Positions 6,579 to 44,199 of a stretch of 53,874 bases of DNA are shown here, in pieces. Source of the DNA: Parvularculaceae bacterium (GTDB taxonomy: Bacteria; Pseudomonadota; Alphaproteobacteria; Caulobacterales; Parvularculaceae); NCBI GenBank assembly GCA_021776435.1, contig JAJFFW010000022.1, positions 1-53,874 on the forward strand, given 5' to 3'. The notes below the pieces were generated by a model. That model did no database searches, had not been told where the DNA came from, and saw only the letters and a program-made list of their open reading frames with translations. Position 1 is the first letter of the stretch, and each line of letters opens with the position of its first letter. The translations under genes were made by a program, and so were the position numbers.

Positions 6579-6583
6579 GTTTG

Positions 6584-15509: not shown

Positions 15510-15562
15510 GTGACTGAAGGATATATCTGGAAACAACCTTTTGAAGGCTCGCCAGAAACGCC

Positions 15563-16261: not shown

Positions 16262-16278
16262 ACCGAAAAGATAATGTT

Positions 16279-16596
16279 ATGACAAGATTACTTCCATCCG
16301 CCGCCGGAAACGTCGCTCAATCATATCCTGAAATTTGGAAAGCCTATGCAGACTTGGGCAAATCGGTTTCGAGCGCTGGGCCGCTTACGCCGAAAATGCG
16401 ACGCCTTGTAAAACTCGGGCTCGCGATAGGTGTCGGGTCTGAAGGAGCCGTGCATTCCCATGTGCGCCGAGCGCTTGAAGAAGGTCTTTCGAAAGACGAG
16501 ATCAAGCATGCAACGTTGTTGGCGATCACGACGATTGGGTTTCCTAAAGCCATCGCAGCGTTGAGCTGGGTCGAAGATATTACTGATGCTTCCTAA
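16279..16596 (+). CDS. Carboxymuconolactone decarboxylase family protein (cysteine-free)
   Basis: A 105-residue helical protein with the CMD/AhpD fold: SEGAVHSHVRRALEEGLSK is the usual E..H..A..G motif, but the cysteines of the AhpD-type redox centre are absent, and the protein has no cysteine at all. A peroxiredoxin-reductase role is therefore unlikely. It starts 17 bases after the regulator gene and is probably co-transcribed with it; its last four bases overlap the convergent nnrS. Similar small CMD proteins occur near denitrification genes, but their function is not known to me. Confidence 0.7.
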   Translation: MTRLLPSAAGNVAQSYPEIWKAYADLGKSVSSAGPLTPKMRRLVKLGLAIGVGSEGAVHSHVRRALEEGLSKDEIKHATLLAITTIGFPKAIAALSWVEDITDAS

Positions 16597-25556: not shown

Positions 25557-26657
25557 CTAAAGATAAACTTCAGTGTCTTCTTCTTCCGTGACAATCTTTA
25601 TAAGTTCAAACTCGCCTGAAGCGACCAATCGTCGGACAGTTGACATAATAACCGTTTGAGCAACTTCAGCTTCCGTGACTGAAACTTGTTTTAGCTGTTC
25701 GATTTGTTCTTCATATTGCTGAGCCATACGTTGCGAAACGTTTTTGAACAAATATTCAACAGTCTCAGGCGCGTTTTGACGCCCGTATTTTGCCGCTTTT
25801 AGGAGGGTGTCAACTTCAATTTCACGAACAATTATGGGAATTGCTTTGGGCGGAACACGTGTCGGAATATCTTCGAATGTCAGAATAAACTCTTTGACCG
25901 AATCATAAATCTCTGGTGTCTTTGTAGAGATAAATTCGAGCAAATTCTGACGCTTTTCTGAGGATAAATTGTTCATTAAGGCGCCAATCATTGCTCCTGG
26001 ATTTTTTGCCTTGGTTTTTTTTCGCATCGGCGCAAGGAGTTCGCTCTCGATCGTATCGGCCAAAACCCGCAAGGCTTCTCGTCGGATATTGATTGGTTTT
26101 GACAGTCGAATAACAACTTCCTGCGCCAAGACAGCGTCCAATTCCCCCAAAATTTGAGAGGCTTTTTCAGGATCCGTTCGAGACAGAATGACAGCAATCG
26201 TCTGAGGATGTTGTGCGGCGAGATACGCACTGACTACGTGCACATCCACGGCGCCCAATTTATCCCAAACGGTTCTACCGCCTGGAGCATCTACGTCATC
26301 CATGAGGCGATCGATCTCGTCTTCGCCCTTGAACTGACTGAGCAGTCGGCGTGTCATCTCATAGCCACCACCGACTTCAAGACCATCCTCTTGCAAATTC
26401 GAAACAAATTCCTCGACGACGGCCATGAGTTCATGGTGAGGGATCTTATGTAAATTGGCATAGGCCTCGGCGAAGGCGCGCAAATGTTTGTCGCTGATGC
26501 GTTCAATGATCGGCCCTGCGGCTTCCGGCCCCAGAGCGGCGATAACGAGAGCTGCCTTTTGCGGAGAAGACAGCATAATCCGTCGGGCATGCCCGCCCGG
26601 TTGCAAAGCGATTTGTGCGGGTGTGGCCAAGGGCGTCCGCACTGTCGTTGAGGTCAT
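25557..26657 (-). CDS. fliG: Flagellar motor switch protein FliG
   Basis: A 366-residue protein. The N-terminal domain QKAALVIAALGPEAAGPIIE resembles the FliF-binding part. The middle contains AQHPQTIAVILSRTDPEKAS, the armadillo repeat that interacts with FliM, and the C-terminal part has charged helices including TFEDIPTRVPPKA that face the stator. FliG transmits torque. It ends the fliF-fliH-fliN-fliP-fliG run and overlaps fliP by four bases (ATGA). Confidence 0.93.
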   Translation of the reverse strand: MTSTTVRTPLATPAQIALQPGGHARRIMLSSPQKAALVIAALGPEAAGPIIERISDKHLRAFAEAYANLHKIPHHELMAVVEEFVSNLQEDGLEVGGGYEMTRRLLSQFKGEDEIDRLMDDVDAPGGRTVWDKLGAVDVHVVSAYLAAQHPQTIAVILSRTDPEKASQILGELDAVLAQEVVIRLSKPINIRREALRVLADTIESELLAPMRKKTKAKNPGAMIGALMNNLSSEKRQNLLEFISTKTPEIYDSVKEFILTFEDIPTRVPPKAIPIIVREIEVDTLLKAAKYGRQNAPETVEYLFKNVSQRMAQQYEEQIEQLKQVSVTEAEVAQTVIMSTVRRLVASGEFELIKIVTEEEDTEVYL

Positions 26658-27397
26658 GTTCCGTATCCTTTGACCACGGCGCCTGCGATTTCAACCCAAC
26701 CGTTTGCCAATACAAAGAAAGCAAGCTTGAAGGGAAGGGAGACAATTGCAGGGGGCACCATCATCATACCCATTGCCATCAAAATTGAAGCGACAATTAA
26801 ATCTATAATCAAAAAAGGTAGAAAAATTACAAACCCGACCTCAAAAGCATGCTGAATTTCCGAGAGCATAAAAGCCGGTACAAGAACCGAAAATGGCGTA
26901 TTACCATCTTCATTCACCCTCGCCGGAGAAACCTCACTTAAAGTTTCAATGGCGACAGGGGACACGCGGGCGTTCATAAATACTTGAAATGGCGCCAAGG
27001 TGCGTTCGAACGCCTGCTTTTCGGTGATGCTGTCGTCGAGTAACGGCTGAATTCCGCTTTGCCAGGATTCGGTAAAAACGGGTTCCATTACAAAGTATGT
27101 TAAAAACAGAGCCAAACTCATGATAAGCATGTTCGGAGGGGCTTGTTGAAGACCTATGGCTTGTCGCAAGATTGAGAAAACAATCACCATGAATGGCAAG
27201 CAGGTAATCATCATCGCGATACCCGGCGCCATACTCAACACGGTCACCAGCCCGAAAAGCTGCACAACGCGCAAACTCAAGCCAGAACCTGTTACAGCAT
27301 CCAGAGTGCTGTCTTGAGCAACTGCCGGCCCGCCAATCAAAAATAGGATTACGACTACTGCGGATAATCCAACGGTAGCGCCAAGCTTGTGCTTCAT
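26654..27397 (-). CDS. fliP: Flagellar type III export gate protein FliP
   Basis: A 247-residue membrane protein with a cleavable signal peptide (MKHKLGATVGLSAVVV up to AVAQ) and the FliP core: MAPGIAMMITCLPFMVIVFS, LRQAIGLQQAPPNMLIMSLA, SEIQHAFEVGFVIFLPFLII and ASILMAMGMMMVPP. It forms the central export channel with FliQ and FliR. The start overlaps the fliN stop by one base (TGATG), so translation is probably coupled. fliO is not visible in this window. Confidence 0.96.
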   Translation of the reverse strand: MKHKLGATVGLSAVVVILFLIGGPAVAQDSTLDAVTGSGLSLRVVQLFGLVTVLSMAPGIAMMITCLPFMVIVFSILRQAIGLQQAPPNMLIMSLALFLTYFVMEPVFTESWQSGIQPLLDDSITEKQAFERTLAPFQVFMNARVSPVAIETLSEVSPARVNEDGNTPFSVLVPAFMLSEIQHAFEVGFVIFLPFLIIDLIVASILMAMGMMMVPPAIVSLPFKLAFFVLANGWVEIAGAVVKGYGT

Positions 27398-27783
27398 CAG
27401 ATAATATCCGACATATCGACGATCTCGGTGAGGCGTATTCCGAGGCGGCCTTGATCGTCTCCCGTTTGAGTGAGTTCGCCGCGGGCGATAACACGATCTT
27501 TAACGCGCAGCTCAACGGGGTCGTCCAAGCTCGTATCAAGCGGTAACAGATGATCCTTTTCCATACTGAGAAGCTCGCCGATCAACGGGCGAGCAGTGCC
27601 AACAGTTACAACGACCTCAATCGGAACACTGAAGATAGCACGTTTGAGCTGATTTTGAGCTGCACTTTCACGACGTTCATAAACGGGCGCTTCAGAATCG
27701 TCATCTTGCTTTTCCCCAGTGTCGAGAGGTGGAAGTTCGCTGCTTTTTGTCGTGTTCGTTTGTTTGGTTTCGTTTTCTGTCAT
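27397..27783 (-). CDS. fliN: Flagellar motor switch protein FliN
   Basis: A 128-residue protein with a polar, acidic N-terminal tail of about 55 residues and one SpoA domain: SVPIEVVVTVGTARPLIGEL, DDPVELRVKDRVIARGEL, GRLGIRLTEIVDM. FliN forms the lower C-ring with FliM and also binds FliH at the export apparatus. It overlaps fliH by four bases and fliP by one base. The usual glycine in the vnGk segment is replaced by RVKDR, a small deviation. Confidence 0.92.
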   Translation of the reverse strand: MTENETKQTNTTKSSELPPLDTGEKQDDDSEAPVYERRESAAQNQLKRAIFSVPIEVVVTVGTARPLIGELLSMEKDHLLPLDTSLDDPVELRVKDRVIARGELTQTGDDQGRLGIRLTEIVDMSDII

Positions 27784-28373
27784 GTTGCTGCTCTTATTTC
27801 TGCCGCCTCATAGGCGTTTTCTAACGCGGTTAAACAATCGGCGATGGCTTGGTCTAAATCGAATTCCATCCCACCACCTTGCCAGGTGGCGTTGGCCACA
27901 GCGCCTGTTAACGTCGGATCCGATGTGACATTTAAGTTTCCGGTTGTGTTCAAGTTCGCAATTGCCGCCTTCAAAGGCTCAACCTTCTCAGGGGGCACAG
28001 TAATTTCAATGGAATTGATGGACGACGTGATTTGAATATTATTGAACGCTTCGGCCGCTTCTATGGCAAACTTCGATTCTGCAAGAACGGGTAAAATCTT
28101 TCTAAGGACGACGGAAAATGCTTTTCCGGACTGTCGGCTCAATCTTATGGGAATTTCTGCGAGTTCGGTTTCTAGCACACTGCAGACTTCCGATAAAAAT
28201 TTTACCTGTTCGTCTGCTGTCGCCATAGCCGCTGCTTGTCCAGCGGCAAATCCTTCAGAATATGCCTCGGCTCTTGCGCGCTGGACGATGATATCCTCGC
28301 CGTTTAATCTGCTGGCGCTCGAGCGATCTTCGTGCGAATCGAACCGCTCTAATACAAGATTGAGAGCGCTCAT
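27780..28373 (-). CDS. fliH: FliH-like negative regulator/stator of the export ATPase
   Basis: A 197-residue protein starting MSALNLVLERFDSHEDRSSA. The ATG at 28373 overlaps the fliF stop by four bases, which is why it is preferred to a longer frame. The segment RARAEAYSEGFAAGQAAAMA shows the AxxxG-type spacing seen in FliH. The C-terminal half is an ATPase stator-like domain ending GGGMEFDLDQAIADCLTALE. The sequence is divergent; position between fliF and fliN carries much of the assignment. Confidence 0.78.
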   Translation of the reverse strand: MSALNLVLERFDSHEDRSSASRLNGEDIIVQRARAEAYSEGFAAGQAAAMATADEQVKFLSEVCSVLETELAEIPIRLSRQSGKAFSVVLRKILPVLAESKFAIEAAEAFNNIQITSSINSIEITVPPEKVEPLKAAIANLNTTGNLNVTSDPTLTGAVANATWQGGGMEFDLDQAIADCLTALENAYEAAEIRAAT

Positions 28374-29920
28374 GCTGCATCTTCCGCAGTTTCGAGCCAT
28401 GATTTGATTAGATTGGCGGTCTCGTCGGTTTTCGTGTTGGCGATCTCTTGCAGAGTTGTGATTGCATCGGGCGGAGCGGCCGGGGTGCTCGCCGCTGAAG
28501 TCAGTTGTGGATTGAGTGTTTCGGTATCAATAGCCGCAAATTGCGTCTGTTGGGGAACAGCCTTCGTTGAGAGCAATGGTTTGACGACGAATAATCCCAG
28601 CACAAGCGTAACAATTGAGAGAACAGCGATTTGAATGGTCTGCATCAAGTGACGTCCTATAAAGTCACCAACGAGATCAGCTTCGACCAACACACCATCA
28701 TTTAATATGGGTTTAAATGGTAGGGTTTGTATTGTGATGGTGTCTCCACGTTCTTCGTTATAACCCGCGGCATTGGCGACAAGCTCCCGAAGTGTTTCGA
28801 TTTCTTCTGAAGTTCTGAGAACGGGTTCGCCACCCTCTTCAATCGCTTCTTCTACTATCTGATTAACAAAAACGGCGACGCTTAATCTACGTGTTGCGCC
28901 AGGTAATTTTTCACGTTCACGCCTGATCTCTGACATATCAAAATCAATTTTTTCATTCGTTTCGGATCTCTCTGTTCTTGATTGTTCACCGGCGGGCGCT
29001 GCGTCACCTGATGGCAAATTGCTTGCCACCGTAATTGCGCCGCTGCTCCCACCAAATGAAGTCTCTGATGTCTCTCGTGTTTCTTTCCCAGCAATCACAC
29101 GTCCGTTAGGATCAAAAACGCGTTCTGTAATCGCTTCGCGCTCCATATCAATTTCGAGTGCAACTTGGACACGTGCGTTCCCAGCACCAACCCGTGCTTC
29201 GAGTAGATTAAGAATGTCGTTTTCAAGTTTTTGCTCACGATCAGCGGAGTCTGCTACTTCAGTTGCCATTGATTCATCTGAACCAGGACTGAGAATAACG
29301 CCCCCGATGGAATCTAAAACGGCAACCTGTTCGGGCGCTAAACTGGGGACTGCGGACGCCACCATGTAGCGGATTGCCTGAGCATTCGCCCCTTCTAGTC
29401 GGCCCTGACTCATAGTTACTGTGACCACGGCAGTCGGTTTCACGCGATTACGAGAGAATGCATTTGAACTTTGACTGGCTATATGGACCCGAGCAGCACG
29501 GATGCCTGGTGTGCTCAAAATTGTGCGGGCTAACTCCCCCTCTTTCGCTCGCCAATATGTTGCATCAAACATGTCTGATGTTGTCGCAAACCCATTCAGG
29601 GTATCCAGAAGCTCGTATCCGGCTTGCCCTTGTTGTGGAAGGCCTTCCCCTGCCAATGACATGCGGGCGGCGTCGCGTTTGGAAACCGGGACATAAATCG
29701 CTTCACCACGAATTTCGAATGGCACATCCATTCGTTCTAACGCACCAATGACATCGCTTGCCGTTCTTCCATCAAGTCCAGCGTAGAGCAAAGACATATT
29801 TGGTGTTGAGGCTGTTCTTGCGAGCATCGCAAAGGCAACAATAGTTGCGGCAACTGATGCGACCATCATCAATCGTTTCGCCGGCGTTAATATTCCCCAA
29901 ATTGAAACAAGTCCCTGCAT
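28370..29920 (-). CDS. fliF: Flagellar MS-ring protein FliF
   Basis: A 516-residue protein, slightly short for the family. N-terminal helix at about residues 15-31, then ring-building motifs (PNMSLLYAGLDGRTASDVIG, TILSTPGIRAARVHIA), a polar insertion near residues 285-330, a second helix (about residues 428-446) and a C-terminal cytoplasmic tail ending LIKSWLETAEDAA that binds FliG. FliF is the base on which rotor and export gate assemble. It is first in its run; the promoter should lie in the 146 bases shared with the divergent fliL. Confidence 0.95.
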   Translation of the reverse strand: MQGLVSIWGILTPAKRLMMVASVAATIVAFAMLARTASTPNMSLLYAGLDGRTASDVIGALERMDVPFEIRGEAIYVPVSKRDAARMSLAGEGLPQQGQAGYELLDTLNGFATTSDMFDATYWRAKEGELARTILSTPGIRAARVHIASQSSNAFSRNRVKPTAVVTVTMSQGRLEGANAQAIRYMVASAVPSLAPEQVAVLDSIGGVILSPGSDESMATEVADSADREQKLENDILNLLEARVGAGNARVQVALEIDMEREAITERVFDPNGRVIAGKETRETSETSFGGSSGAITVASNLPSGDAAPAGEQSRTERSETNEKIDFDMSEIRREREKLPGATRRLSVAVFVNQIVEEAIEEGGEPVLRTSEEIETLRELVANAAGYNEERGDTITIQTLPFKPILNDGVLVEADLVGDFIGRHLMQTIQIAVLSIVTLVLGLFVVKPLLSTKAVPQQTQFAAIDTETLNPQLTSAASTPAAPPDAITTLQEIANTKTDETANLIKSWLETAEDAA

Positions 29921-30066
29921 TTGTAATTCGCCCGTTAATACCTAGCGCTAACAAAATAATTCCAACGCTCTGAATTTCATTTACCATTTGATCATTAAGA
30001 GGAGGTTACACATACAAGCATCAAATGGGCGTGAGCGAAGTTTTTCACGTGAAGTGGAGCTCGAGA

Positions 30067-30585
30067 ATGAGCGATGAAGAAACAACGACGGAAGAAGATG
30101 CCGGCCAGGACGAGCTCGAAAAGAAGCCCTCGCCTGTAAAGTCAATTCTCTTCTCCGTATTGCTAGCGTTGGTCATGGGTGTTGTTGCGGCAGGCAGCGT
30201 GTATTTGTTTGCTCCAACGCAGGTCGCAAGTGACGCTTCGGCATCGAATGAGAAATCAAGCCATAAAAGTAGCCATAACAAACGCGATGTCACATACGTT
30301 AATCTGGAACCCCTTGTGGTGACGTTGGGCCCGGACGCCCAATCAAGTTATCTAAAGATTTCAGTCACGCTCGAGACGACTTCAAGTCATGAAAAAACAC
30401 TAATCGAGATGATGCCGCGATTTAGAGATGTATTGATTAGTTATCTGCGCGCAGTTGATGAAAATGATTTGATTCAACCTTCGGCAATGATCCGTCTGCG
30501 TGCGCAGATGTTGCGAAGGTTGCAACTTGTTGGTTCAGAGGAAGCAGTGAATGACGTCCTCATTACAGATTTTGTCTTAACTTAG
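30067..30585 (+). CDS. fliL: Flagellar basal-body-associated protein FliL
   Basis: A 172-residue protein starting MSDEETTTEEDAGQDELEKK. GGAG stands eight bases upstream of this ATG, so the longer frame from 30025 is less likely. One membrane helix (about residues 26-48) is followed by a linker and the FliL domain: YVNLEPLVVTLG, SYLKISVTLETTS, MPRFRDVLISYLRAVDENDL. FliL rings surround and strengthen the stator. It opens the fliL-DUF6468-motE-motA run. A second FliL-like gene lies at 37719. Confidence 0.9.
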   Translation: MSDEETTTEEDAGQDELEKKPSPVKSILFSVLLALVMGVVAAGSVYLFAPTQVASDASASNEKSSHKSSHNKRDVTYVNLEPLVVTLGPDAQSSYLKISVTLETTSSHEKTLIEMMPRFRDVLISYLRAVDENDLIQPSAMIRLRAQMLRRLQLVGSEEAVNDVLITDFVLT

Positions 30586-30595
30586 GAGGCCCGTT

Positions 30596-31078
30596 ATGGA
30601 ACTCGTTACGGATTTTCTGCTTCTCGCCGCCACCGGAACCGCATGTCTTTACTGTTGGATTCTCAGCAAGCGACTGAAGCGACTTACCAATGCAAAGAAT
30701 GGATTCGGCGCAGGGATCGCCGCTCTGTCACATTCAGCCGAAGAGATGAAGGCAGTGATGGAGAGTACGAAAGTATCGGGCGACGCTGTCGCACATCGCC
30801 TGGAGACTCTATTGATCAAATCGGAAAATAGGGTTTCGCATCTTCAAGATTTGCTTCAACAGGTCACTGACATGCGAGAATCCGCAATGGATGAAACAAG
30901 GCAAGTCACTTTGAAATACACGGAAACTCTTTCGCCATTGATCGAAGAGGCAAATGAGAGTGCAGATCGTTTGTTTAATGCGTTAGACGCAGCATCCGCC
31001 GCTGAGTTGGAGATGATGTGCAGGCCATTCGGACAAGATGCGGATAAACGCCCTCTCAAAGTTGCTGTAAATCTCTAA
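30596..31078 (+). CDS. DUF6468-like flagellar-operon membrane protein
   Basis: A 160-residue protein with one N-terminal membrane helix (residues 3-22) followed by a long, mostly helical cytoplasmic part: RLKRLTNAKNGFGAGIAALS, a heptad-like region about residues 65-120. The layout matches the small proteins annotated as DUF6468 between fliL and motE in alphaproteobacterial flagellar operons. I infer this from position and architecture, not from a search. It starts ten bases after fliL. Function is unknown; stator or export accessory would fit. Confidence 0.6.
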   Translation: MELVTDFLLLAATGTACLYCWILSKRLKRLTNAKNGFGAGIAALSHSAEEMKAVMESTKVSGDAVAHRLETLLIKSENRVSHLQDLLQQVTDMRESAMDETRQVTLKYTETLSPLIEEANESADRLFNALDAASAAELEMMCRPFGQDADKRPLKVAVNL

Positions 31079-31101
31079 ATAAAAAATTCAGGAGTGATGG
31101 T

Positions 31102-31788
31102 GTGAAACCGAACCCATTGATGGTCATTCTCTTCGTTCTTGCCGCGTCGTTTATGGGACGTTTTATCAATTTTGCGGGAGCTGCGGCAGAGAACATCAGT
31201 GACGCGGAGTTGAGTGCGGAAGCATCCGAAGCGGCTATGTCAAAGGAAACGGAAAACATCGCACCTCCTGCGGAGCCAGAACCCGTCATTTCCATGCTTT
31301 CGGCGCCATTGCAGGCAGATACAGCGCACCATGATTCCGGATTGAGTGAACCTTCAGATGTTTTGGAAGAGACAGATTCTGTTGATCGATCCGCGCTTCT
31401 TAAGGCGGTGCGCGTGCGCTCTACGACGCTTGCAAAGCATGAAGCGGACCTAGCGGACCGAGTGCGATTGTTAGAGGTCGTTGAGCGGCGAGTTGATGAA
31501 AAGATACTGGTCCTTAAATCTGTGAAAGAAGAGCTTGAATCACGACTGGTCTTTGCAGATAGCGCGGCAAAAGAAGACGTAACGTTACTCGCCCGAATGT
31601 ATGAGCAGATGAAGCCGCAAAAGGCCGGTGAAATCTTCAATGCGATGGACTCGTCATTTGCAGCAGGGTTTTTGACAGAGATGAATAGTGATAGCGCTGC
31701 GCAGATTTTGACGAACATGGAAACCAATAAAGCCTATGCTGTAAGCGTCATGATAGCCGGTCGAAATGCGAATCTCGATCGACCATGA
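31102..31788 (+). CDS. motE: MotE-like flagellar protein
   Basis: A 228-residue protein starting at GTG, with AGGAG seven bases upstream. It has an N-terminal helix or uncleaved signal (residues 5-22), an acidic linker, a coiled coil (about residues 100-150), and a C-terminal MgtE_N-like helical domain: LARMYEQMKPQKAGEIFNAM and MNSDSAAQILTNM. In rhizobia MotE is a periplasmic chaperone for the motility protein MotC. No MotC-like protein is obvious here, so its client may be the large TPR protein two genes downstream. That link is speculative. Confidence 0.75.
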   Translation: MKPNPLMVILFVLAASFMGRFINFAGAAAENISDAELSAEASEAAMSKETENIAPPAEPEPVISMLSAPLQADTAHHDSGLSEPSDVLEETDSVDRSALLKAVRVRSTTLAKHEADLADRVRLLEVVERRVDEKILVLKSVKEELESRLVFADSAAKEDVTLLARMYEQMKPQKAGEIFNAMDSSFAAGFLTEMNSDSAAQILTNMETNKAYAVSVMIAGRNANLDRP

Positions 31789-31875
31789 TGAAGGTCTATT
31801 TCATTATATATTAATTATAAAAATCTATAAAATTATCTCGTCCAAGTTTACTTCAGCTTAGAAAAAGCGATCGAT

Positions 31876-32742
31876 ATGGGCAGTATAATTGGTATAGTAA
31901 TTACTGTTGTTATGGTCTTCGGCGGTTATATGATCGCTGGCGGACATCTAGAGATTATCCTTCATTCCTTGCCCTATGAGATGATGATAATTGGTGGCGC
32001 CGCCACTGGCGCCTTTGTTGTCGGTAACGATCTTTCGGTCATCAAGCACACAGCAGCCGATCTTGTAAAGATTTTTACAGGTGCGCGCTGGAAGCGGCAA
32101 GATTATCAAGATCTTCTTTGTCTTTTATTTGATTTAGTGCGGATCGCAAAAGAAAGCCCCGTTGAAATTGAGAGGCATATAGAAAACCCATCCGAGTCGA
32201 CGGTCTTCGGTAAATACCCAAGAATTAACGCCGATAACGAAGCAATCGATATGATCTGCGATACGATCCGTTCTATGACAATGAATTTCGATAACCCACA
32301 CCAAGTCGAGGAATTACTCGAAAAACATCTTGAATCATTGCACGAAAATAGCATGCATGGCGCTCATGCCTTGCAGAAGATGGCGGATGGCCTGCCGGCT
32401 CTTGGGATTGTGGCAGCGGTTCTTGGCGTGATAAAAACCATGGCGTCTATTGATAAACCACCCGAAGTTCTCGGGCAGATGATCGGTGGCGCCCTAGTCG
32501 GGACGTTTCTCGGTGTTTTCCTCGCATACGGACTGGTTGGGCCATTTTCAGACAAAGTCATGGCAATTCGGGAGGAAGAAAGTCGCTTTTACGCTCTAAT
32601 TCGTGAAGCCCTTGTCGCCAGTCTGAATAAGCATACGCCTCAACTTTGTGTGGAGGTCGCGCGCCGGAATGCGCCGAAAAAATTTCGACCTAGTTTCAAC
32701 GACCTTGAAGATGCGATTCGTGCTTCGCAGAAGGCTGCATAA
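31876..32742 (+). CDS. motA: Flagellar motor stator protein MotA
   Basis: A 288-residue protein with four membrane helices: helices 1-2 near the N-terminus (MGSIIGIVITVVMVFGGYMI), a large cytoplasmic loop, then MADGLPALGIVAAVLGVIKT and GGALVGTFLGVFLAYGLVGP. Both prolines important for torque in characterised MotA proteins are visible in these last helices. It works with MotB as a proton channel. An 87-base AT-rich gap before it (TATATTAATTATAAAA near 31806) may contain its own promoter. It overlaps the next gene by one base (TAATG). Confidence 0.95.
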   Translation: MGSIIGIVITVVMVFGGYMIAGGHLEIILHSLPYEMMIIGGAATGAFVVGNDLSVIKHTAADLVKIFTGARWKRQDYQDLLCLLFDLVRIAKESPVEIERHIENPSESTVFGKYPRINADNEAIDMICDTIRSMTMNFDNPHQVEELLEKHLESLHENSMHGAHALQKMADGLPALGIVAAVLGVIKTMASIDKPPEVLGQMIGGALVGTFLGVFLAYGLVGPFSDKVMAIREEESRFYALIREALVASLNKHTPQLCVEVARRNAPKKFRPSFNDLEDAIRASQKAA

Positions 32743-34997
32743 TGATAACCCGCACGGCCATAACGCTTTTTTGCACTTTGTTTTTCGTTGGCGATGCCTT
32801 CGCGGAGGGAACCGTTGACTTCTCCGCAGGGGAGCATGCAGATCATTCGAGAATTGTGATCTCAGGCAGTGATACAGAATTAAATGTCACTCAATCGGGG
32901 AGAGATATAGAAATTCACTTCCGTAGCGTTATTGACAAATTTAATTTGGCAGATGTCAATATATTTAGAAAAGCGCACCGGGTTTTAAAAGCGGATGAGG
33001 CGTCCGTGGCTTCCGGGTCACTCGTTCGTTTGCAGCTTAACTGTGATTGTCAAGTCAAGACTATGCAGTTAGAGGATGGCGACTGGACTCTTGATATATT
33101 CGACTCTGTACAAAAACAAAAATTGGTTGAGAAAACCAAACCTGTACCTCAAAAGAAATCAGAGTCGACGCTGAAAGATAATAAACAAAAGCAACGTAAC
33201 GATGAGGATGTGGACACGCTATCTGTTGATCAGGCGCATACGAGGATGGTTGATCTTCTTCAACAAGCTGCAGATGAGGGGCTAATTGTCATCAAATCTA
33301 AGACTGAAGAAACAGCCGATCCGTCTACGGGAGATGATTCAAGAAGCGTGTTCGAGGAGATCGCCACCATCGCGATCGACAAAGATGAACACATCGAATC
33401 CGTTTCACAAGCACCTCCAAAAGTGTTGGCGCCTGGAGCTTGCTTACCAGATGATGATTTCGCCATTGATGGGGAGCGTTTTGAGAAGAATCCGTTAGTG
33501 GAAATAGCGGAGCTGCAATCGAATATTATCGATGCGTCTGCTGAACAACAAAGAGAAGTGATTGAGAAACTTGCAGGTGGATTTCTGGCAATTGGGTTTG
33601 GGGAAGAAGCATTAGCACTGTTAACGGATAGCGGATTGGAAGGCATATTGCTGGCGGATATGGCGCGCACAGTGGCGGAAAAACCAATCCAGGCATCAGG
33701 AATATTGCTCAATGCCATTGAGTGCGGGGGCGCGCATGCCCTTTGGCAAGCAGCTGCAAGTGAACCAGCGGTGGCTACCGAAAAGTTTCATAGGTCAAGT
33801 GATGCTGTAACTTTGCTTCCGAAACGGTTGCGCGCATTGCTTGGGGCAAGAATAGCTCAGAAGATGATTGATGCAGGCGATTGGGCCACGGCTAATCGCC
33901 TTTATGAGATTGCGGCTTCGGCGTCTGAAATTCCGACACCAAAATTACAATTTGTTGCGGCGCGATTGCGCGAGCATGAGGGGGCCACGGAGGAATCACA
34001 GGATTTACTCCTCGATCTTGCCGGAAGCGGGAGTGATGCCGCTAAAGACGCGCTCTTAATGCTTGCTGAACAATATGCAGTTGGTCAGGGAGAACCGCAT
34101 GTTGGGTTTGTTGATGATCTCGGTGCGCTTGCGAAAGTGCAGCGAGGCTCTGACGATGGGGCGCAGGCAGCATTTATGGAAGCGCTCATTTGGTCTGAAG
34201 CCGGTAATGTCGAAGCAAGTATGTTGTTGTTGAGAAGTGCGGCGAATTCCAGCCCTGCGAAAGCGGAAAAGTCGCGTTTAAAAGCGCGTGAAATTCTTAC
34301 CAAGGCATTTTCGTCTCCAATCGAAGCTGAACGTATTTCAGCGCTCGCGGCATTCATGGATCATCGTGAATTTGTTGAGTCCATCGACCCATCCCCCACG
34401 TTTCAGCAAAATGTGGCCCGGTCAGCGCTGGACTTAGGGCTGCCAAACATTGCGTTCGATGTTTTGAAAGACCGTGCCCTCTCGTCGAAAAAAGAATTGA
34501 TGCAGCTTAAGGCGTTAGCCGCGCTGGAGGGGCACAACACTGAAGGTGCGCTCGCTATGGCGGCGCCGTATACGAACGACCCAGAATTTGCGGAGCTCGT
34601 TGTAAGGGCCAACATGCAACAGAGAAATTATTTTGCAGCGCTTGCGGTAGCTTCCACGCTTCCCAACTCGAGTAAAAAAGAAATCTTGACTTCACAATCG
34701 GCATGGCGAGCTGGCGATTGGGAGAGTGCTGAGAGGGCATTTCGTCGTATGGATCCCAGTTTGATGGGAGAAAATGTGGCCATTCAATATGCATTTGCCG
34801 CGTATATGTCTGGCGTCAGTGTAATTCCGCCTGCTGCAGAAGCGGTTTTAAGAAGAACGAATAGCAGTGCCCTTGCGGGAATTAAAAGCCTTTTTTCGAA
34901 TGCGCTTGAAGGATCCATTTTGGATCGCGCCCGAACGGCCACGATGGGCGCGACAGAGGAAATTGAGTTACTTGAGGAGGCGCTTAGTCATGGATAA
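32742..34997 (+). CDS. Periplasmic beta-domain plus helical-repeat (TPR-like) flagellar-cluster protein
   Basis: A 751-residue protein with a signal peptide cleaved after FAEG (about residue 23). Residues 25-120 look like a beta-rich, AMIN-like domain (RIVISGSDTELNVTQSGRDI). A basic linker follows (KPVPQKKSESTLKDNKQKQR), then an acidic stretch, and from about residue 250 to the end a solenoid of paired helices rich in A and L (NRLYEIAASASEIPTPKLQF, LKALAALEGHNTEGALAMAA). Its start overlaps motA and its end overlaps flgF by eight bases, so it is embedded in the operon. I do not recognise a characterised homologue; a periplasmic scaffold around stator or rings is a guess. Confidence 0.65.
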   Translation: MITRTAITLFCTLFFVGDAFAEGTVDFSAGEHADHSRIVISGSDTELNVTQSGRDIEIHFRSVIDKFNLADVNIFRKAHRVLKADEASVASGSLVRLQLNCDCQVKTMQLEDGDWTLDIFDSVQKQKLVEKTKPVPQKKSESTLKDNKQKQRNDEDVDTLSVDQAHTRMVDLLQQAADEGLIVIKSKTEETADPSTGDDSRSVFEEIATIAIDKDEHIESVSQAPPKVLAPGACLPDDDFAIDGERFEKNPLVEIAELQSNIIDASAEQQREVIEKLAGGFLAIGFGEEALALLTDSGLEGILLADMARTVAEKPIQASGILLNAIECGGAHALWQAAASEPAVATEKFHRSSDAVTLLPKRLRALLGARIAQKMIDAGDWATANRLYEIAASASEIPTPKLQFVAARLREHEGATEESQDLLLDLAGSGSDAAKDALLMLAEQYAVGQGEPHVGFVDDLGALAKVQRGSDDGAQAAFMEALIWSEAGNVEASMLLLRSAANSSPAKAEKSRLKAREILTKAFSSPIEAERISALAAFMDHREFVESIDPSPTFQQNVARSALDLGLPNIAFDVLKDRALSSKKELMQLKALAALEGHNTEGALAMAAPYTNDPEFAELVVRANMQQRNYFAALAVASTLPNSSKKEILTSQSAWRAGDWESAERAFRRMDPSLMGENVAIQYAFAAYMSGVSVIPPAAEAVLRRTNSSALAGIKSLFSNALEGSILDRARTATMGATEEIELLEEALSHG

Positions 34998-35709
34998 TGC
35001 AGGCTATGTAGGGCTGACCAGGCAAGCGGGGTTATTACGTGAGTTGAACGCGATTGCGAACAACATCGCTAACCTCAATACAACTGGTTATCGTCGTGAA
35101 GGGGTCGTCTTTTCAGAACACGTGAAGGCGCTTGGCAATGATGATCCTAGTCTTTCGATGGCAACAGCGAGCCACCGTTTTGTAGACCTCAATGTTGGTG
35201 AGATTAAAAGAACAGACAACTCGCTCGATTTCGCGATCGACGGTGATGCATTCTTCCTTATAGAAACGCCAGCTGGGCAACGCCTGACGAAGGCTGGAGC
35301 ATTCACGGTCAACGAGGTTGGTGAACTTACTACAGGTGGTGGTGCGCGCGTGCTCGATGAGGGCGGGGGGGCAATCGTTCTGCCCACTCAAGCACGCGTT
35401 ATCTCCGCAACACCCGATGGGTCACTGATGGCCGATGGTCAACCGGTAGGACGTTTAGGTTTGATGAAAGCGGACCCGGCTTTCCTCGTACGAGAGGGTG
35501 ACAATTTATTTCGTGCTGACCAGGGGTTTGAACCCGCAGATGATGTAAAAGTTCGTCAGAATGCACTTGAAGGATCCAATGTCAGTGCAGTGACGGAAAT
35601 TGCACGTCTGATTGAAGTACAGAGAACGTATGAGTCGGGGCAGAAACTTTTCCAAAATGAGGATGAGCGAATTAGGAAAACGGTCCGTGACCTGGGGCAA
35701 ATGCGATGA
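34990..35709 (+). CDS. flgF: Flagellar proximal rod protein FlgF
   Basis: A 239-residue rod protein starting MDNAGYVGLTRQAGLLRELN, with GAGGAGG nine bases upstream inside the end of the previous gene; a longer frame upstream has no such site. ANNIANLNTTGYRREGVVF is the rod N-terminal motif and SAVTEIARLIEVQRTYESGQ the C-terminal one. FlgF is an export substrate of the proximal rod. It is 34 bases before flgG; length and the shorter C-terminus distinguish the two. Confidence 0.92.
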   Translation: MDNAGYVGLTRQAGLLRELNAIANNIANLNTTGYRREGVVFSEHVKALGNDDPSLSMATASHRFVDLNVGEIKRTDNSLDFAIDGDAFFLIETPAGQRLTKAGAFTVNEVGELTTGGGARVLDEGGGAIVLPTQARVISATPDGSLMADGQPVGRLGLMKADPAFLVREGDNLFRADQGFEPADDVKVRQNALEGSNVSAVTEIARLIEVQRTYESGQKLFQNEDERIRKTVRDLGQMR

Positions 35710-35743
35710 AGATATTCGTCTGCATTAAGAAAGGGATAGAAAT

Positions 35744-36529
35744 ATGCGTGCATTAAGCATAGCGGCTACTGGCATGGATGCGCAACAAACGCGTGTCGAA
35801 GTCATTTCAAATAATCTCGCAAATATGAACACAACCGCCTATGCGGCGCGTCGTGCTGAATTTTCGGATCTTCATTACCAAATCGTTCGTGCGGCAGGCG
35901 CATCGTCGTCTTCCGATGGTACGGTCGTGCCAGAGGGGGTCCAGATGGGGCTGGGCGTTCGTACGTCATCGATTGCGATCGAGATGAGTCAAGGCACTCT
36001 CAAGGAGACATCGGGTGATCTTGATTTGGCTATCGATGGTAAGGGATTCTTTGAAGTGACAATCCCATCCGGTGACGCAGCCTATACCAGGGACGGAGCC
36101 TTTAAACGCACAGGCGAGGGGCTCATGGTGAACAGCGAAGGATTTCCTCTCGCTGGTGATATCACCATTCCGGAAGACGCTCGGCGTATTGCCATAAATC
36201 CAGAGGGTGAGGTTTTTGCGCATTTCGATGGTCAGCCGCAAGGGCAGCTAATTGGGCAAATTAATCTTGTCACATTCTCTAACGCCAACGGGTTAGAACC
36301 GATGGGGGGCAATCTCTACCGTGAAACAGCGGCTTCCGGGTCGCCGATCATTGGCGAACCAGGCCAGGATGGCGTCGGTATGATGAACCAAGGGTATCTT
36401 GAAGAATCCAGCGTAGATGTCGTTCAACAAATAGCCGAATTGATTGAAGCTCAACGGGGATACGAACTTAACTCAAAAGTTATTTCCGCAGCTGATCAGA
36501 TGCTCGGCGCAGCAAACCAGATTCGGTGA
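35744..36529 (+). CDS. flgG: Flagellar distal rod protein FlgG
   Basis: A 261-residue protein, typical FlgG length, starting MRALSIAATGMDAQQTRVEV and SNNLANMNTTAYAARRAEF. The C-terminus is SSVDVVQQIAELIEAQRGYE followed by LNSKVISAADQMLGAANQIR, a near-universal FlgG ending. FlgG forms the distal rod that passes through the P- and L-rings encoded in the same locus. It ends four bases before flgA. Confidence 0.96.
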   Translation: MRALSIAATGMDAQQTRVEVISNNLANMNTTAYAARRAEFSDLHYQIVRAAGASSSSDGTVVPEGVQMGLGVRTSSIAIEMSQGTLKETSGDLDLAIDGKGFFEVTIPSGDAAYTRDGAFKRTGEGLMVNSEGFPLAGDITIPEDARRIAINPEGEVFAHFDGQPQGQLIGQINLVTFSNANGLEPMGGNLYRETAASGSPIIGEPGQDGVGMMNQGYLEESSVDVVQQIAELIEAQRGYELNSKVISAADQMLGAANQIR

Positions 36530-36533
36530 TGTT

Positions 36534-36959
36534 ATGTTAAAATTTTCAGGATTAATCGCTGCCTCAATTCTCGCTTCTGGGTACGAACCGGCCGTTATTG
36601 AGGAATTAGTCGCTGCACGTAATGTTAGCGTTGGTCAGATCATCACCGCCAGTGATATTGTCACGCCTAAGGGCGAAATTGGACTTCGTCGTGCGGCGCA
36701 CCTCATTGGCCAAGAGACCCTGCACGCCCTTTACAAAGGGAAGGCGTTTTCGGAAGGAGACCTGCATGCACCTACGATCGTTAATCGAAATACCATCGTG
36801 AAAATGGAATTCGTAAAAGGCCCTATGACGATATCCGCTGAGGGACGCGCGTTAGACAATGGCGGCATGGGTGAACGAGTTCGGGTGATGAACCTTCTTT
36901 CGCGACGCGTTGTTACGGCTGTTGTTATTGCAGAAAATACTGTGAAGGCGAAACCATGA
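36534..36959 (+). CDS. flgA: Flagellar P-ring assembly chaperone FlgA
   Basis: A 141-residue protein starting MLKFSGLIAASILASGYEPA at the ATG four bases after flgG; an upstream in-frame start lies inside flgG and is rejected. The SAF-type domain shows ELVAARNVSVGQIITASDIV and later GPMTISAEGRALDNGGMGER and VRVMNLLSRRVVTAVV. The hydrophobic start suggests export. FlgA helps FlgI polymerise in the periplasm. It is shorter than many FlgA proteins, having only the C-terminal SAF part. It overlaps flgH by four bases. Confidence 0.88.
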   Translation: MLKFSGLIAASILASGYEPAVIEELVAARNVSVGQIITASDIVTPKGEIGLRRAAHLIGQETLHALYKGKAFSEGDLHAPTIVNRNTIVKMEFVKGPMTISAEGRALDNGGMGERVRVMNLLSRRVVTAVVIAENTVKAKP

Positions 36960-37711
36960 AGTTAAAGAAATATCTTCTCGCCTGCGCTTCGCTATGCTTG
37001 CTGACGCAAGGCTGTGTGAGTCGAATTGATCATTTCGGGAAAGCACCGTCAATGAGTGCGCCGGGTAGCCCGCGTCATGCATTACCACCAGTATCAGAAC
37101 AACGAATGGCACTTGCGAAGGCGCGAATTCCGTCGCCAGATGAAGAGGGGGCGACTGGATCTCTCTGGCGTTCGGGGCCAGCGTCGTTATTCGGTGACCG
37201 CAGAGCGCGCACTCTTGGCGACATTGTGACAGTAGTTGTCGAGATAGATGAAGAAGCGGAAATCCGTAATCGTACGAATCGTACGCGTGATGGGTCCGAA
37301 GAACTGGCGGTGCCGAATCTTTTCGGTTTACCGACCCTGGCGAAGCGCGTACTTCCAGGTGATGCTGACCTCGATCCCGCTATCGAAGCCAGTTCGTCAT
37401 CCTCTTCAAACGGGGACGGCACAATCCGCAGGCAAGAAAAGATCACGCTTCAAATCGCAGCGACGGTCGTCACCATACTACCAAATGGTCACATGGTGAT
37501 CTCTGGCAATCAGGAGGTGCGTGTCAATCATGAGCTTCGCGATCTGCAAGTCGCAGGAATCATTCGACCAGAAGATATCTCACGTAGAAATACGATTACT
37601 TATGAGAAAATAGCCGATGCTCGTGTTATATATGGAGGTCGCGGATCAATCACTGATCTCCAGGAGCCGCGCTATGGTCAACAGGTGCTCGACGCCATAA
37701 TGCCGTTTTGA
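36956..37711 (+). CDS. flgH: Flagellar L-ring lipoprotein
   Basis: A 251-residue lipoprotein. The signal peptide ends with the lipobox LTQGC (C20). The mature part contains SLWRSGPASLFGDRRARTLG, DIVTVVVEIDEEAEIRNRT, GHMVISGNQEVRVNHELRDL and the C-terminal GSITDLQEPRYGQQVLDAIM, all typical of FlgH. It forms the outer-membrane ring around the distal rod. It follows flgA with a four-base overlap. Confidence 0.96.
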   Translation: MKLKKYLLACASLCLLTQGCVSRIDHFGKAPSMSAPGSPRHALPPVSEQRMALAKARIPSPDEEGATGSLWRSGPASLFGDRRARTLGDIVTVVVEIDEEAEIRNRTNRTRDGSEELAVPNLFGLPTLAKRVLPGDADLDPAIEASSSSSSNGDGTIRRQEKITLQIAATVVTILPNGHMVISGNQEVRVNHELRDLQVAGIIRPEDISRRNTITYEKIADARVIYGGRGSITDLQEPRYGQQVLDAIMPF

Positions 37712-37718
37712 TAGTCCC

Positions 37719-38258
37719 ATGATGAAATTTCTCCCTGTAATCTTGCAAGTAATTTTTGTTTTCGGCGGCGTGATGGCTGGCCTTTGGCTGAAATTTACGC
37801 CAGATGCCGGCGCCGATCATGTTGAGATTGAAGCCGATGATCATGCTCTGGTCACACATGACAATACGAATGAAAACGCTGAGAAGAAAAAGAATAAATC
37901 GGGTGGAGGTCATGGTGCTGACAATATGAATTCCGATAATGGGTATATGAAATTCAGCCGTCAGTTTATCGTGCCGGTGTTGGATAAGGCTGGTGTTAAT
38001 TCACTTGTTATCCTGGAATTAAATATCGAAGTGCCATCAAACGCAACTGAAACCATATATGTTAAGGAACCCAAGTTAAGGGACGTATTATTGAGCCGTC
38101 TATTACAACTCTCCAATGGCGGAGCCTTTGACGATCAGATAACTGAGCAAAGAAAGCTGGACACGCTTCGCGTGGAATTACTTGAGGCGGCGCAGGGCGT
38201 TATCGGTGAGAGCGCGATAAATATTCTGATATTAAATATATCAAGACAAAACGTTTGA
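37719..38258 (+). CDS. Second FliL-like membrane protein
   Basis: A 179-residue protein (start at 37719 or the ATG one codon later). One N-terminal helix (residues 4-24), a polar, acidic then lysine- and glycine-rich linker to about residue 65, and a C-terminal domain with VILELNIEVPSN, EPKLRDVLLSRLLQLSNGGA and INILILNIS. The last part parallels FliL. Rhodobacter sphaeroides has a FliL-like extra motor protein, MotF, needed for rotation; this could be an analogue, but I cannot show orthology. It follows flgH by seven bases and its end overlaps the convergent flgD by 18 bases. Confidence 0.6.
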   Translation: MMKFLPVILQVIFVFGGVMAGLWLKFTPDAGADHVEIEADDHALVTHDNTNENAEKKKNKSGGGHGADNMNSDNGYMKFSRQFIVPVLDKAGVNSLVILELNIEVPSNATETIYVKEPKLRDVLLSRLLQLSNGGAFDDQITEQRKLDTLRVELLEAAQGVIGESAINILILNISRQNV

Positions 38259-38936
38259 TTTAATGGATTCCCGTACGGCGGTGATAGATCCGGGTTCCAC
38301 AACATTTCCGTTTTCTAGAATCAATTGCATCGCACCATTGACTAATCTCGCTTCGGTTACGCGTGCATTGATGCTCGGTAATGGTCTCCCGATAAGGGTA
38401 TCATCTCTGAAAGTGGGGACTGATATCGTATATTCCCCCTGAGGAACTACAAAACCGCCACTATCAACACCGTTCCATGTGAATGTGTTTTGACCGACGC
38501 GTACATCTTCTCGAAAAATAACAGAATTATTTCTGTCACGTATCACCACTTCGTTTGTCGTTCCAACCGCGCTTGGGGGGAGACGGAAATTTAAATCTTC
38601 GCCATTGAACCGGACAACGCCTGTTTCAGCTTCGACCTCTTTCCCGATCCACTGAGTGGCTTCCTCCAACCCGGCTGCAGCGCCTAACCCACCGGCAATT
38701 TCCTCTAGCAACTGGTTAGATTTCACTTGTTGCTCAACAGATGAGAAGCTCGCAAGTTGTTCGACAAATTGCGTTGAATCAAGAGGACTCAAAGGATCCT
38801 GATTTCTCAATTGTGCCGTGAGAAGTGAGAGAAAGCTTTTAAAATCTGATGCTGCTGATGCGGCGGCGCCAGCCGTCGAACTGGGGTCAGGTCGTGGTGT
38901 GACGCCAGTCGCATCTGAAATTGGTGGTATAATCAT
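38241..38936 (-). CDS. flgD: Flagellar hook cap/scaffold protein FlgD
   Basis: A 231-residue protein. The N-terminal DFKSFLSLLTAQLRNQDPLS followed by PLDSTQFVEQLASFSSVEQ is the export and capping motif of FlgD. The C-terminal half has a beta-rich FlgD-type Ig/Tudor region (FTWNGVDSGGFVVPQGEYTI). FlgD caps the growing hook and is later replaced by FlgK. It follows fliK by 30 bases on the same strand. The 3' end overlaps the convergent FliL-like gene. Confidence 0.94.
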   Translation of the reverse strand: MIIPPISDATGVTPRPDPSSTAGAAASAASDFKSFLSLLTAQLRNQDPLSPLDSTQFVEQLASFSSVEQQVKSNQLLEEIAGGLGAAAGLEEATQWIGKEVEAETGVVRFNGEDLNFRLPPSAVGTTNEVVIRDRNNSVIFREDVRVGQNTFTWNGVDSGGFVVPQGEYTISVPTFRDDTLIGRPLPSINARVTEARLVNGAMQLILENGNVVEPGSITAVRESIKSNVLS

Positions 38937-38966
38937 ATCAATCTATTCCGTTTCATAGTGAAGGGG

Positions 38967-40283
38967 CTAAACGAGCCGGTCCAATCGATTGTTGTCATCC
39001 ATTGACAGGTAAACGACTTTCCGTTCATTCCCATTTTCAAAAACCTCCACGTCAGCTGCTTCCTCAGAAGTAAAGACATGTTGGTTACTGGAAGAAAAAT
39101 CGAGTTGAACGTTTTCAAATCCTGCTTCCTCCAACGCTCTGACCAAATCATTTCCGTGGCGACGAAGCAGGTCGAGAGTCTCACCTCGCTCAGAAGAAAC
39201 GATGGCAGTCACCGCTTCGGTGGTTTCCATATTAAATTGGACTCGAACGCGACCGAGGTCTGGAGGGTCCAATCTCACATCAATTGTTTTACCACTGCGA
39301 TCGTTACTGATCGCGGCGATAACTTGGCGTGCAGCATCAACTGACGAAGTCGCATTGAATGACGTTGCTTGCACAGATTTTGTGATTGTCCGTTGCAGAT
39401 CAACTTCCGACAAAGCTCCATTTTCTATGGAACCCACCGTTATCAGCGGTGTATCCGATGTAAAGCTCGGAGGTGCATTGACGCTTGTGAAATTTGAAAT
39501 TGCTGCAGACGGCGCGGTCTCTACAGGTGAGTTTATGTTCGAGCGAATTGGATCTCTACGAAAATCCGAAGTAAGCGTCTCGGCGTCCAGCGGTGCAGTT
39601 TCGCGCCCTTCAAGACCAGATTGGGTAGGCGCATTGACTGTCTTCGATTTTTCCAGAAGCGGTGCTGGTGATACCGCTTCGATAACGGATTTCTGTTCGA
39701 GGTTGTTTTGAATGAATGGCTTTGATTCTGAGGTTCGCGGTTCGTCAATCTCAATGTCAGTCCGGTTTGGGAACTCGTTAGCGTCGATTTTAGATATAGA
39801 GGAACGGAATTCACTCAGAACAAAGTCGTTGGAGATCTCTACAGCTTGCACAGAGGGGTCGCTGTGTGAAGGCAATGTCGGGTCGGTGATTGACGCAAGC
39901 TCAGGTGGTATCGATTCTGTTACTATGTTTTCAACAAGAATTTTCTGACTGGGCGTTGTTCGAAAATCATTCAATTCTTCGCCGGGAAAAATCAGTGTGT
40001 TGTCTACAGTCGCTAAATCTTCGGAAAACTCGATGTTGAGTTCGGTTGGCGTCAATTCAGTGTCGCCCTCAAGGGAATTCACTAAGCTATGCTTTGTGAG
40101 TGGCGTTGATAAACGAGTTGTTTCAGGCTTTTCGCCGCCTGAAGGCGCGCCACTTTCTCCAAACTCAGCCTTGAAGGCGCGAGCATCCTTATCCACCTGA
40201 CCTTGATCGGTCGTGGCGCTCTCCTCATTGGTCCGGCCCTGCGAAACATTCTGCACGATCTTAATAGCTGTCAGTGGATCCAT
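38967..40283 (-). CDS. fliK: Flagellar hook-length control protein FliK
   Basis: A 438-residue protein. The first 320 residues are low-complexity, rich in S, T, P, E and N, as in the ruler part of FliK. The C-terminal flg_hook domain (about residues 325-415) reads IDVRLDPPDLGRVRVQFNME and LDLLRRHGNDLVRALEEAGF. FliK measures the hook and switches export specificity through FlhB. It leads a fliK-flgD pair, the two proteins that shape the hook. It diverges from flgJ over about 100 AT-rich bases. Confidence 0.88.
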   Translation of the reverse strand: MDPLTAIKIVQNVSQGRTNEESATTDQGQVDKDARAFKAEFGESGAPSGGEKPETTRLSTPLTKHSLVNSLEGDTELTPTELNIEFSEDLATVDNTLIFPGEELNDFRTTPSQKILVENIVTESIPPELASITDPTLPSHSDPSVQAVEISNDFVLSEFRSSISKIDANEFPNRTDIEIDEPRTSESKPFIQNNLEQKSVIEAVSPAPLLEKSKTVNAPTQSGLEGRETAPLDAETLTSDFRRDPIRSNINSPVETAPSAAISNFTSVNAPPSFTSDTPLITVGSIENGALSEVDLQRTITKSVQATSFNATSSVDAARQVIAAISNDRSGKTIDVRLDPPDLGRVRVQFNMETTEAVTAIVSSERGETLDLLRRHGNDLVRALEEAGFENVQLDFSSSNQHVFTSEEAADVEVFENGNERKVVYLSMDDNNRLDRLV

Positions 40284-42916: not shown

Positions 42917-43357
42917 ATGACAAGCGGATTGGTTCTTCGTCTTCGGCCAAACGAGAAATTTCTCGTGAATGGCGTTGTATTAGAAAATGGCGATCGCCGA
43001 ACGCGCCTTCGTGTTACCTCACAAAATGCGAAGATATTGCGTCTGCGGGATGCCTTGCACCCTAATGATGCGAACACGCCCACCAAACGTCTTTATTATA
43101 TTGCTCAACTTGCGGTCGCAGGTGAAGCGAGTGTTGAAGACATCAAAGAAGAACTCTTGTCCGGGTTGTTGAAACTGCGTGCAGCGTTCGGTGATGAAGA
43201 GGGTAGCAAAGATATAGATATGGCAATCGAAGCCGCCAAAGAGGAACGCTTTTACCACGTTATGCGCTCTTTGCACCGGGTAATCCCGCACGAAGTTCCG
43301 CTCTTGATGGCAGTTCGGCCTAAAGGCATTGAGATCGCGGAAATCAATACGCGCTAA
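42917..43357 (+). CDS. flbT: Flagellin mRNA-binding regulator FlbT
   Basis: A 146-residue protein with LVLRLRPNEKFLVNGVVLEN GDRR at the start, AKILRLRDALHP, and RRAL-type helices including RFYHVMRSLHRVIPHEVPLL near the C-terminus, typical of FlbT. In Caulobacter it binds the 5' leader of flagellin mRNA and shortens its life when assembly is incomplete. The hairpins at 41132-41241 are the likely target here. It follows flaF by two bases and overlaps the next gene by one base (TAATG). Confidence 0.93.
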   Translation: MTSGLVLRLRPNEKFLVNGVVLENGDRRTRLRVTSQNAKILRLRDALHPNDANTPTKRLYYIAQLAVAGEASVEDIKEELLSGLLKLRAAFGDEEGSKDIDMAIEAAKEERFYHVMRSLHRVIPHEVPLLMAVRPKGIEIAEINTR

Positions 43358-44199
43358 TGTTTTTTCAACCGGCAATCGGCGTTGGTGGATATGGTGGTTG
43401 GCGCATATTGCAGGCGACGGCGTCACGTCAGCAAGAGACTTTTGAGAAGTCGCCATCGCTTGGGCGTGATATCGAATATTTTCGTGAGAATATTACGAAA
43501 GCGACCACTGCGGAAGCGCTTGTCAAAGATCGCCGTTTATTAAGAGTGGCGCTTGGCGCGTTCGGTCTCAGCAGCGAGATTAATAAACAAGCCTTAGTAC
43601 AGAAAATACTGGCTGATGGAACGGAAGAGCCGACTGCATTCGCTAATCGATTAGGGGATGCGCGCTTTAAAAATCTCGCAGAAGCATTTGATTATGGTAA
43701 TATTACTGCTGGATCAAATATCTTATTAAAATCGTTCCGTGAAGATATTATTGCCCGATTTAAAACTCAGGAGTTCGAACGAGCTGTCGGAGAAACCGAC
43801 GGTGATATGCGCCTTGCGTTGAACTTTAAACGAGAAATCGGCGCCATCGCATCAAGCGAAAGCGTAGACAGAGTTGGTTGGTTTCAAGTTATGGGACAGA
43901 GACCTCTGCGAACGCTCATTTCAACGGCGCTTGGCTTGCCAGAGAGTGTTGCGCAGCTCGATCTCGATAAACAGCAAGAAATATTTCAGGACAAAGCGCG
44001 TGATTTATTCGGAGACTCGTCTGTTTCCGTTTTCACCGATCCAGAAAATGTTGAAACGGCGATCCGCCAATTTTTTCTTTTTCAGCAAATAAAAGACGGT
44101 TCAACGACGGTTACACCTGGTACAACGGCGCTTACCTTGCTTCAAAGCGCTAGCTTTGGCGGCGCCGGGGGCGCCAACCTGTTTCAATCGCAAGTCTAA
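43357..44199 (+). CDS. DUF1217 family flagellar protein
   Basis: A 280-residue protein starting MFFQPAIGVGGYGGWRILQA. It shows the repeated helical units of DUF1217: SLGRDIEYFRENITKATTAE, LLRVALGAFGLSSEINKQAL, and NRLGDARFKNLAEAFDYGN. The family occurs in alphaproteobacterial flagellar loci, often beside flaF-flbT, and is poorly characterised. Translation is probably coupled to flbT through the one-base overlap. No signal peptide or membrane helix is seen, so a cytoplasmic or exported-by-flagellum location is possible. Confidence 0.82.
   Translation: MFFQPAIGVGGYGGWRILQATASRQQETFEKSPSLGRDIEYFRENITKATTAEALVKDRRLLRVALGAFGLSSEINKQALVQKILADGTEEPTAFANRLGDARFKNLAEAFDYGNITAGSNILLKSFREDIIARFKTQEFERAVGETDGDMRLALNFKREIGAIASSESVDRVGWFQVMGQRPLRTLISTALGLPESVAQLDLDKQQEIFQDKARDLFGDSSVSVFTDPENVETAIRQFFLFQQIKDGSTTVTPGTTALTLLQSASFGGAGGANLFQSQV

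Follow-up and report, generated by a model that had tools for sequence, protein, structure and literature searches.

The flagellar gene run at positions 30025-38258 (+ strand) of contig JAJFFW010000022.1 from a Parvularculaceae bacterium (assembly GCA_021776435.1; the full 53,874 nucleotides are referred to here as the window) encodes, with a probability of about 0.9, the MotE–MotK stator-scaffold module of the alphaproteobacterial flagellar motor. It comprises fliL, a pflI-type gene, motE, motA, a 751-codon gene, flgF, flgG, flgA, flgH, and a second gene of the FliL family (fliLb). The module is evident at this locus from gene content and order, domain architecture, and homology, and the 751-residue product of positions 32742-34997 is MotK.

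The Fla2 operon of Cereibacter sphaeroides is described as fliL2–pflI–motE–motA2–motK (PMC10954123, 2024). Its MotE and MotK are periplasmic and both essential for rotation, and motE and motK mutants carry flagella that are paralyzed; MotE binds MotK, and each binds MotB2 (PMC10954123). By analogy, the same periplasmic location, requirement in rotation, and MotE–MotK–MotB binding would be expected in the Parvularculaceae organism. The original prediction, made from the DNA sequence alone, had proposed a distinct stator scaffold here. The operon and the MotE–MotK–MotB2 interactions were, however, already in print (PMC10954123) and reviewed as an E-ring and spoke system (PMC13023049); that idea was therefore correct in its pairing of proteins and already published in substance. 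With its clear operon, the locus adds Parvularculaceae to the groups known to carry the module; otherwise it confirms published work.

MotK and MotE of the Parvularculaceae locus

MotK consists of a signal peptide, an AMIN-type beta domain (residues ~19-122), a linker, and a long TPR solenoid (~237-717). In its AlphaFold2 model (mean predicted local distance difference test score of 81, built from a 19-row alignment), the strands lie at 24-121 and the helical solenoid at 237-717, with a linker of low confidence between them. In structural alignments, residues 19-122 fit the E. coli AmiC AMIN domain (4bin) with a Z of 12.3 and a root-mean-square deviation (rmsd) of 2.3 Å over 102 residues, the beta domain also fits PilQ (Z 11.1 and 10.9), and the solenoid resembles TPR proteins. 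The top Foldseek match in the PDB is chain K of 9hmf, a periplasmic scaffold of the Campylobacter jejuni motor (E 3.4e-7, 773 residues). Judged by its length, this chain is probably PflA, because the paper that deposits 9hmf describes PflA as a beta-sandwich, a linker, and a TPR superhelix (PMC12222027).

The gene lies directly 3' of motA, in the place that motK occupies in the fliL-pflI-motE-motA-motK order of PMC10954123. Paroceanicella profunda (Paracoccaceae) encodes a homologue at the MotK position (BLASTP 6e-20; hhalign probability 100, E 8.4e-41, 670 columns), and a plasmid search for further named relatives returned Paroceanicella alone. The closest named relatives are themselves Parvularculaceae (Marinicaulis metagenome-assembled genomes and Amphiplicatus metriothermophilus), from one scan that yielded 27 loci. 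A sequence search of solved structures gave no flagellar relative of MotK and no PflA match, only a chance-level match to CheA.

MotE (31102-31788, + strand) is the candidate E-ring protein and contains 228 residues: a hydrophobic N-terminal helix, a disordered linker, a 77-residue coiled-coil helix, and an MgtE_N/ARM-like head. The model places the helices at 5-33 and 92-168, the former being a signal or membrane anchor. The head matches PF03448 (MgtE_N) above the cut-off (E 2.8e-9) and gives FliG/MgtE fold matches with probabilities up to 1.00 (best E 6.4e-3). Alignment with the MotE of the Paroceanicella profunda locus shows 44% identity over 126 residues.

The order of these genes is not due to chance, because it recurs among relatives. 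When 27 related loci (L045-L071) were compared, the full order fliL–pflI–motE–motA–motK–flgF–flgG–flgA–flgH–fliLb was found in 18; seven have motA–motK–flgF–flgG–flgA–flgH–fliLb without adjoining fliL, pflI, and motE, one has an initially unmatched open reading frame in the place of motK that was matched later, and one is different. A Paroceanicella profunda plasmid has the identical order, second FliL included. Such neighborhood conservation was put forward with the original prediction as a check. A scan of 200 genomes of the order (presumably Caulobacterales) at E up to 0.001 detected FlgI in 193, the MotE profile in 173, the second-FliL profile in 120, and the MotK profile in 47. A MotE match is present in every one of the 27 same-family genomes that match MotK strongly. 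In other families, the part of MotK is taken by a protein of >1000 residues linked to motE. Some Parvularculaceae-like genomes (G035 and G154; L148 and L149) carry two FlgI and two MotE genes; a Caulobacter-type TPR protein follows the second motE in G035 and G154, which suggests two flagellar systems.

Four observations weigh against assigning this locus to the MotE–MotK module. First, the superposition on 9hmf is poor (rmsd 43 over 835 columns), as is expected for a flexible solenoid, and is weak as proof. Second, homology to MotK runs via the Paracoccaceae relative and synteny, not directly to the C. sphaeroides MotK sequence, UniProt Q3IY86. Third, the 228-residue MotE has no cysteine, unlike both studied MotEs (S. 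meliloti and C. sphaeroides). Fourth, MotE occurs without detectable MotK in one genus, designated g3, so that MotE and MotK are not strictly inseparable.

Proposed mechanism and competing explanations

In the mechanism that we propose, the MgtE_N/ARM heads of MotE dimers would form an E-ring around the MS-ring with their coiled coils pointing outward. MotK would act as a PflA-like spoke whose TPR solenoid binds MotE and whose AMIN end reaches the peptidoglycan or MotB, and MotA/MotB units would thereby be recruited or activated. According to PMC13023049, MotE is the E-ring protein of Alphaproteobacteria, and MotK and MotC are related to PflA and FlcB; PMC11870540 takes the same view of Caulobacter CC_2059 and CC_2058. 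Distant homologues of MotK in Roseobacteraceae and Caulobacteraceae have already been proposed by the authors of PMC10954123. We infer the ring-and-spoke geometry for Alphaproteobacteria, and any role of PflI or of the second FliL, on the same conditional footing.

MotE could instead be merely a periplasmic chaperone of the TPR protein, a function proposed for it toward MotC in Sinorhizobium meliloti, with neither MotE nor the TPR protein belonging to a ring or spoke. The small, coiled-coil MotE found here would suit such a function, and S. meliloti MotC is degraded without MotE (reviewed in PMC13023049). This alternative is nevertheless unlikely, given that C. sphaeroides MotK remains stable when MotE is missing and that MotE-sfGFP reaches the flagellar pole in the absence of MotK, MotA2, or MotB2 (PMC10954123); moreover, the FliG/MgtE-type fold of the head is common to E-ring proteins (PMC13023049). 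The original prediction had cast the TPR protein as a client of MotE. The pairing stands, as this protein is the most likely MotE partner, but the direction is reversed in C. sphaeroides, where MotE is lost without MotK (PMC10954123). The prediction had also noted the absence of MotC, which agrees with genome-wide searches with a Phyllobacterium MotC query and a five-sequence MotC profile that gave no match; MotC was rejected as the MotE partner after these searches, which had no positive control. Comparison of MotK with the same profile showed no similarity, so that the sequences speak neither for nor against the MotC–MotK homology asserted in PMC13023049.

It is quite improbable that the 751-residue protein is a rod or P/L-ring assembly factor, with its AMIN domain on peptidoglycan and its adjacency to motA incidental. 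The gene does overlap flgF by 8 bp, with flgG, flgA, and flgH further downstream. However, the C. sphaeroides motK and motE mutants are flagellated but paralyzed, not unassembled (PMC10954123), and genus g3 keeps flgG, flgA, and flgH although its motA and flgF are direct neighbors, without this gene between them. Least credible is a distinct stator scaffold non-homologous to MotK/PflA: the 751-residue protein has no Pfam family match, but its AMIN+TPR architecture, its homology to the Paracoccaceae MotK-position protein, and its profile match over the TPR part to the Caulobacter-type motE-linked AMIN+TPR protein (probability 98.7, E 2.3e-16) all argue against such a scaffold.

Natural variation of the module

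Variation among relatives concerns (i) the MotE cysteine, (ii) the AMIN domain, and (iii) the presence of MotK. A cysteine N-terminal of the coiled coil is present in the aligned S. meliloti and Phyllobacterium MotE rows, and substitution of their cysteine destabilizes both studied MotEs, those of the disulfide-linked sub-type in S. meliloti and C. sphaeroides (PMC10954123). This cysteine stabilizes the dimers of those two proteins; the MotE of the present clade is cysteine-free. Inspection by eye of 43 MotE reading frames showed this cysteine immediately ahead of the coiled coil in 24. The other 19 lack it, among them the MotE of the window and those of all 11 loci nearest to it (L045-L055).

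The motA–flgF interval was surveyed in 79 loci (78 and the window), of which 76 were judged and 3 were not judgeable. The loci were picked for MotK or second-FliL matches, and the counts are not population rates: 20 encode an AMIN+TPR protein, 46 a TPR protein without AMIN, 3 an open reading frame of 455-512 residues unmatched by the TPR profile, and 7 have no gene. AMIN is hence missing from 46 of the 69 insert genes in the three classes with a gene. The AMIN-less proteins in the MotK position (L061, L062, L065-L070, L142, L150, L154, L161-L193, L198, and L199) consist of signal peptide, linker, and TPR. A very diverged AMIN domain could escape detection, yet nine aligned AMIN-less sequences leave no room between signal peptide and linker. 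In a 76-row MotA tree, two changes account for the AMIN label (shuffled mean 17.9) and two for the no-gene label; L150, which lacks AMIN, sits within a group of AMIN-bearing loci (starred branch of the tree).

All seven g3 loci that were judged (L155-L160 and L200; 6 genomes, G030 twice) have flgF immediately next to motA. A diverged motE is kept in the operon in four of them (L155-L158), and flgG, flgA, and flgH remain. A search of nine g3 genomes with the MotK profile found nothing, with no positive control.

These patterns could mean that the E-ring/spoke module is itself modular, a tentative reading that we place somewhat below even odds. Under this reading, AMIN, the proposed peptidoglycan anchor, would have been lost at least once within an AMIN-bearing clade and be lacking throughout a second clade, the disulfide of MotE would be dispensable, and g3, which has no MotK and a diverged MotE, would run its motor with a spokeless E-ring. 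In that case, MotK would not generally need AMIN as a peptidoglycan anchor to recruit stators. AMIN-less MotK, cysteine-free MotE, and MotK-free motors provide ready comparisons for asking what portion of the scaffold is responsible for stator recruitment. The published MotE/MotK accounts consulted yielded nothing on cysteine-free MotE, AMIN-less MotK, a MotK-free genus with motE, or a conserved second FliL, and the literature as accessible likewise yielded nothing on AMIN-less MotK or Parvularculaceae MotE. Judging from sequence comparison, the remaining interest of the system may lie in its modular variation.

Neighboring genes and known systems

The genes named in the original prediction (those for the DUF6468-like, MotE-like, TPR, and FliL-like proteins, motA, and flgF-flgH) are all where it placed them. 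Its description of one coupled run holds for most junctions, which overlap or are ≤34 bp, and fails between motE and motA, which are 87 bp apart. The first gene of the run, fliL (30025-30585, +), encodes a canonical FliL (PF03748, E 3.3e-18) and lies just outside the range originally examined, 30596-38258. It is followed by the pflI-type gene (30596-31078, +), whose product has an N-terminal membrane helix in an N-terminus conserved in the alignment; its match to DUF6468 (PF20072, E 0.0012) is below the Pfam cut-off, and its position fits that of pflI in PMC10954123. The stator subunit gene motA (31876-32742, +; TIGR03818, E 1.6e-110) precedes motK. The latter is followed on the same strand by flgF (34990-35709; PF06429, PF22692, and PF00460), flgG (35744-36529; named by position and synteny), flgA (36537-36959; TIGR03170, E 2.8e-26), and flgH (36956-37711; PF02107, E 4.7e-56).

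The run closes with the second FliL-family gene, fliLb (37719-38258, +), whose putative function can only be guessed at as a role beside the stator. By profile–profile comparison (E 2.6e-11) its product is a FliL paralogue, the PF03748 match (E 0.0029) being below the cut-off. It is present in 26 of the 27 relatives' loci and in Paroceanicella profunda, and strong matches to it track the motA–flgF–flgH cluster type. Identity with the rhizobial FliL, which is also encoded after flgH, was rejected: the rhizobial protein matches the canonical FliL profile (E 1.2e-6), whereas the second-FliL profile gives no real match to it (E 0.011 over 20 residues). In C. sphaeroides, fla2 is under the control of CtrA (PMC10954123). 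The CtrA motif was taken as TTAA-N7-TTAA. With one mismatch allowed, 18 matches against 20.2 expected give no evidence of CtrA control; one of the 18, at 29995-30009, lies upstream of fliL.

fliLb and flgD overlap tail to tail by 18 bp, and flgD–fliK (38241-40283, −) form that flank of the run; on the other, fliF–fliH–fliN–fliP–fliG (25557-29920, −; named by position and synteny) are divergent from it. The window also contains flgI (24007-25113) and, outside the run, motB for the stator partner of MotA (19283-20113, +; PF13677 MotB_plug and PF00691). The remaining MotA/ExbB-type matches of the genome are on other contigs. A MotA/ExbB-like and OmpA-like pair at 115-1857 of L011 (G000, contig C76) is Zorya-like (PADLOC ZorA E 5.2e-16, ZorB E 2.7e-21). 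A DUF1217 protein is encoded at 43357-44199 within the flagellar cluster, and a DUF1217 gene adjoins motA in Phyllobacterium (L151) too. Adjoining the cluster, positions 5826-17795 carry a respiratory nitrate reductase operon (gamma, delta, beta, and alpha) and a 920-residue MFS transporter, then a Crp-family regulator and NnrS.

Among known systems, C. sphaeroides Fla2 shares the order fliL-pflI-motE-motA-motK, an AMIN-like N-terminus with TPR, and a coiled-coil MotE. It differs in the lengths of MotK (652 residues versus 751 here) and MotE (185 versus 228), and the Parvularculaceae MotE has a long linker and no cysteine. Caulobacter crescentus CC_2059/CC_2058 likewise pair MotE with an AMIN+TPR protein (PMC10954123, PMC13023049), and MotK has profile homology to motE-linked TPR proteins of the same order, whereas in the Caulobacter-type loci compared the TPR protein exceeds 1000 residues and directly follows motE with no motA between. 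Sinorhizobium meliloti MotE–MotC also combines a MotE homologue with a TPR-rich periplasmic partner (PMC13023049), but no MotC was found in the Parvularculaceae genome by the searches described above. Campylobacter jejuni PflA has no sequence match to MotK in the PDB, yet FlgY–PflA (9hmf; PMC12222027, PMC11870540) presents a combination, probably shared here, of a beta-sandwich, linker, and TPR spoke with an E-ring protein bearing an MgtE_N-type head.
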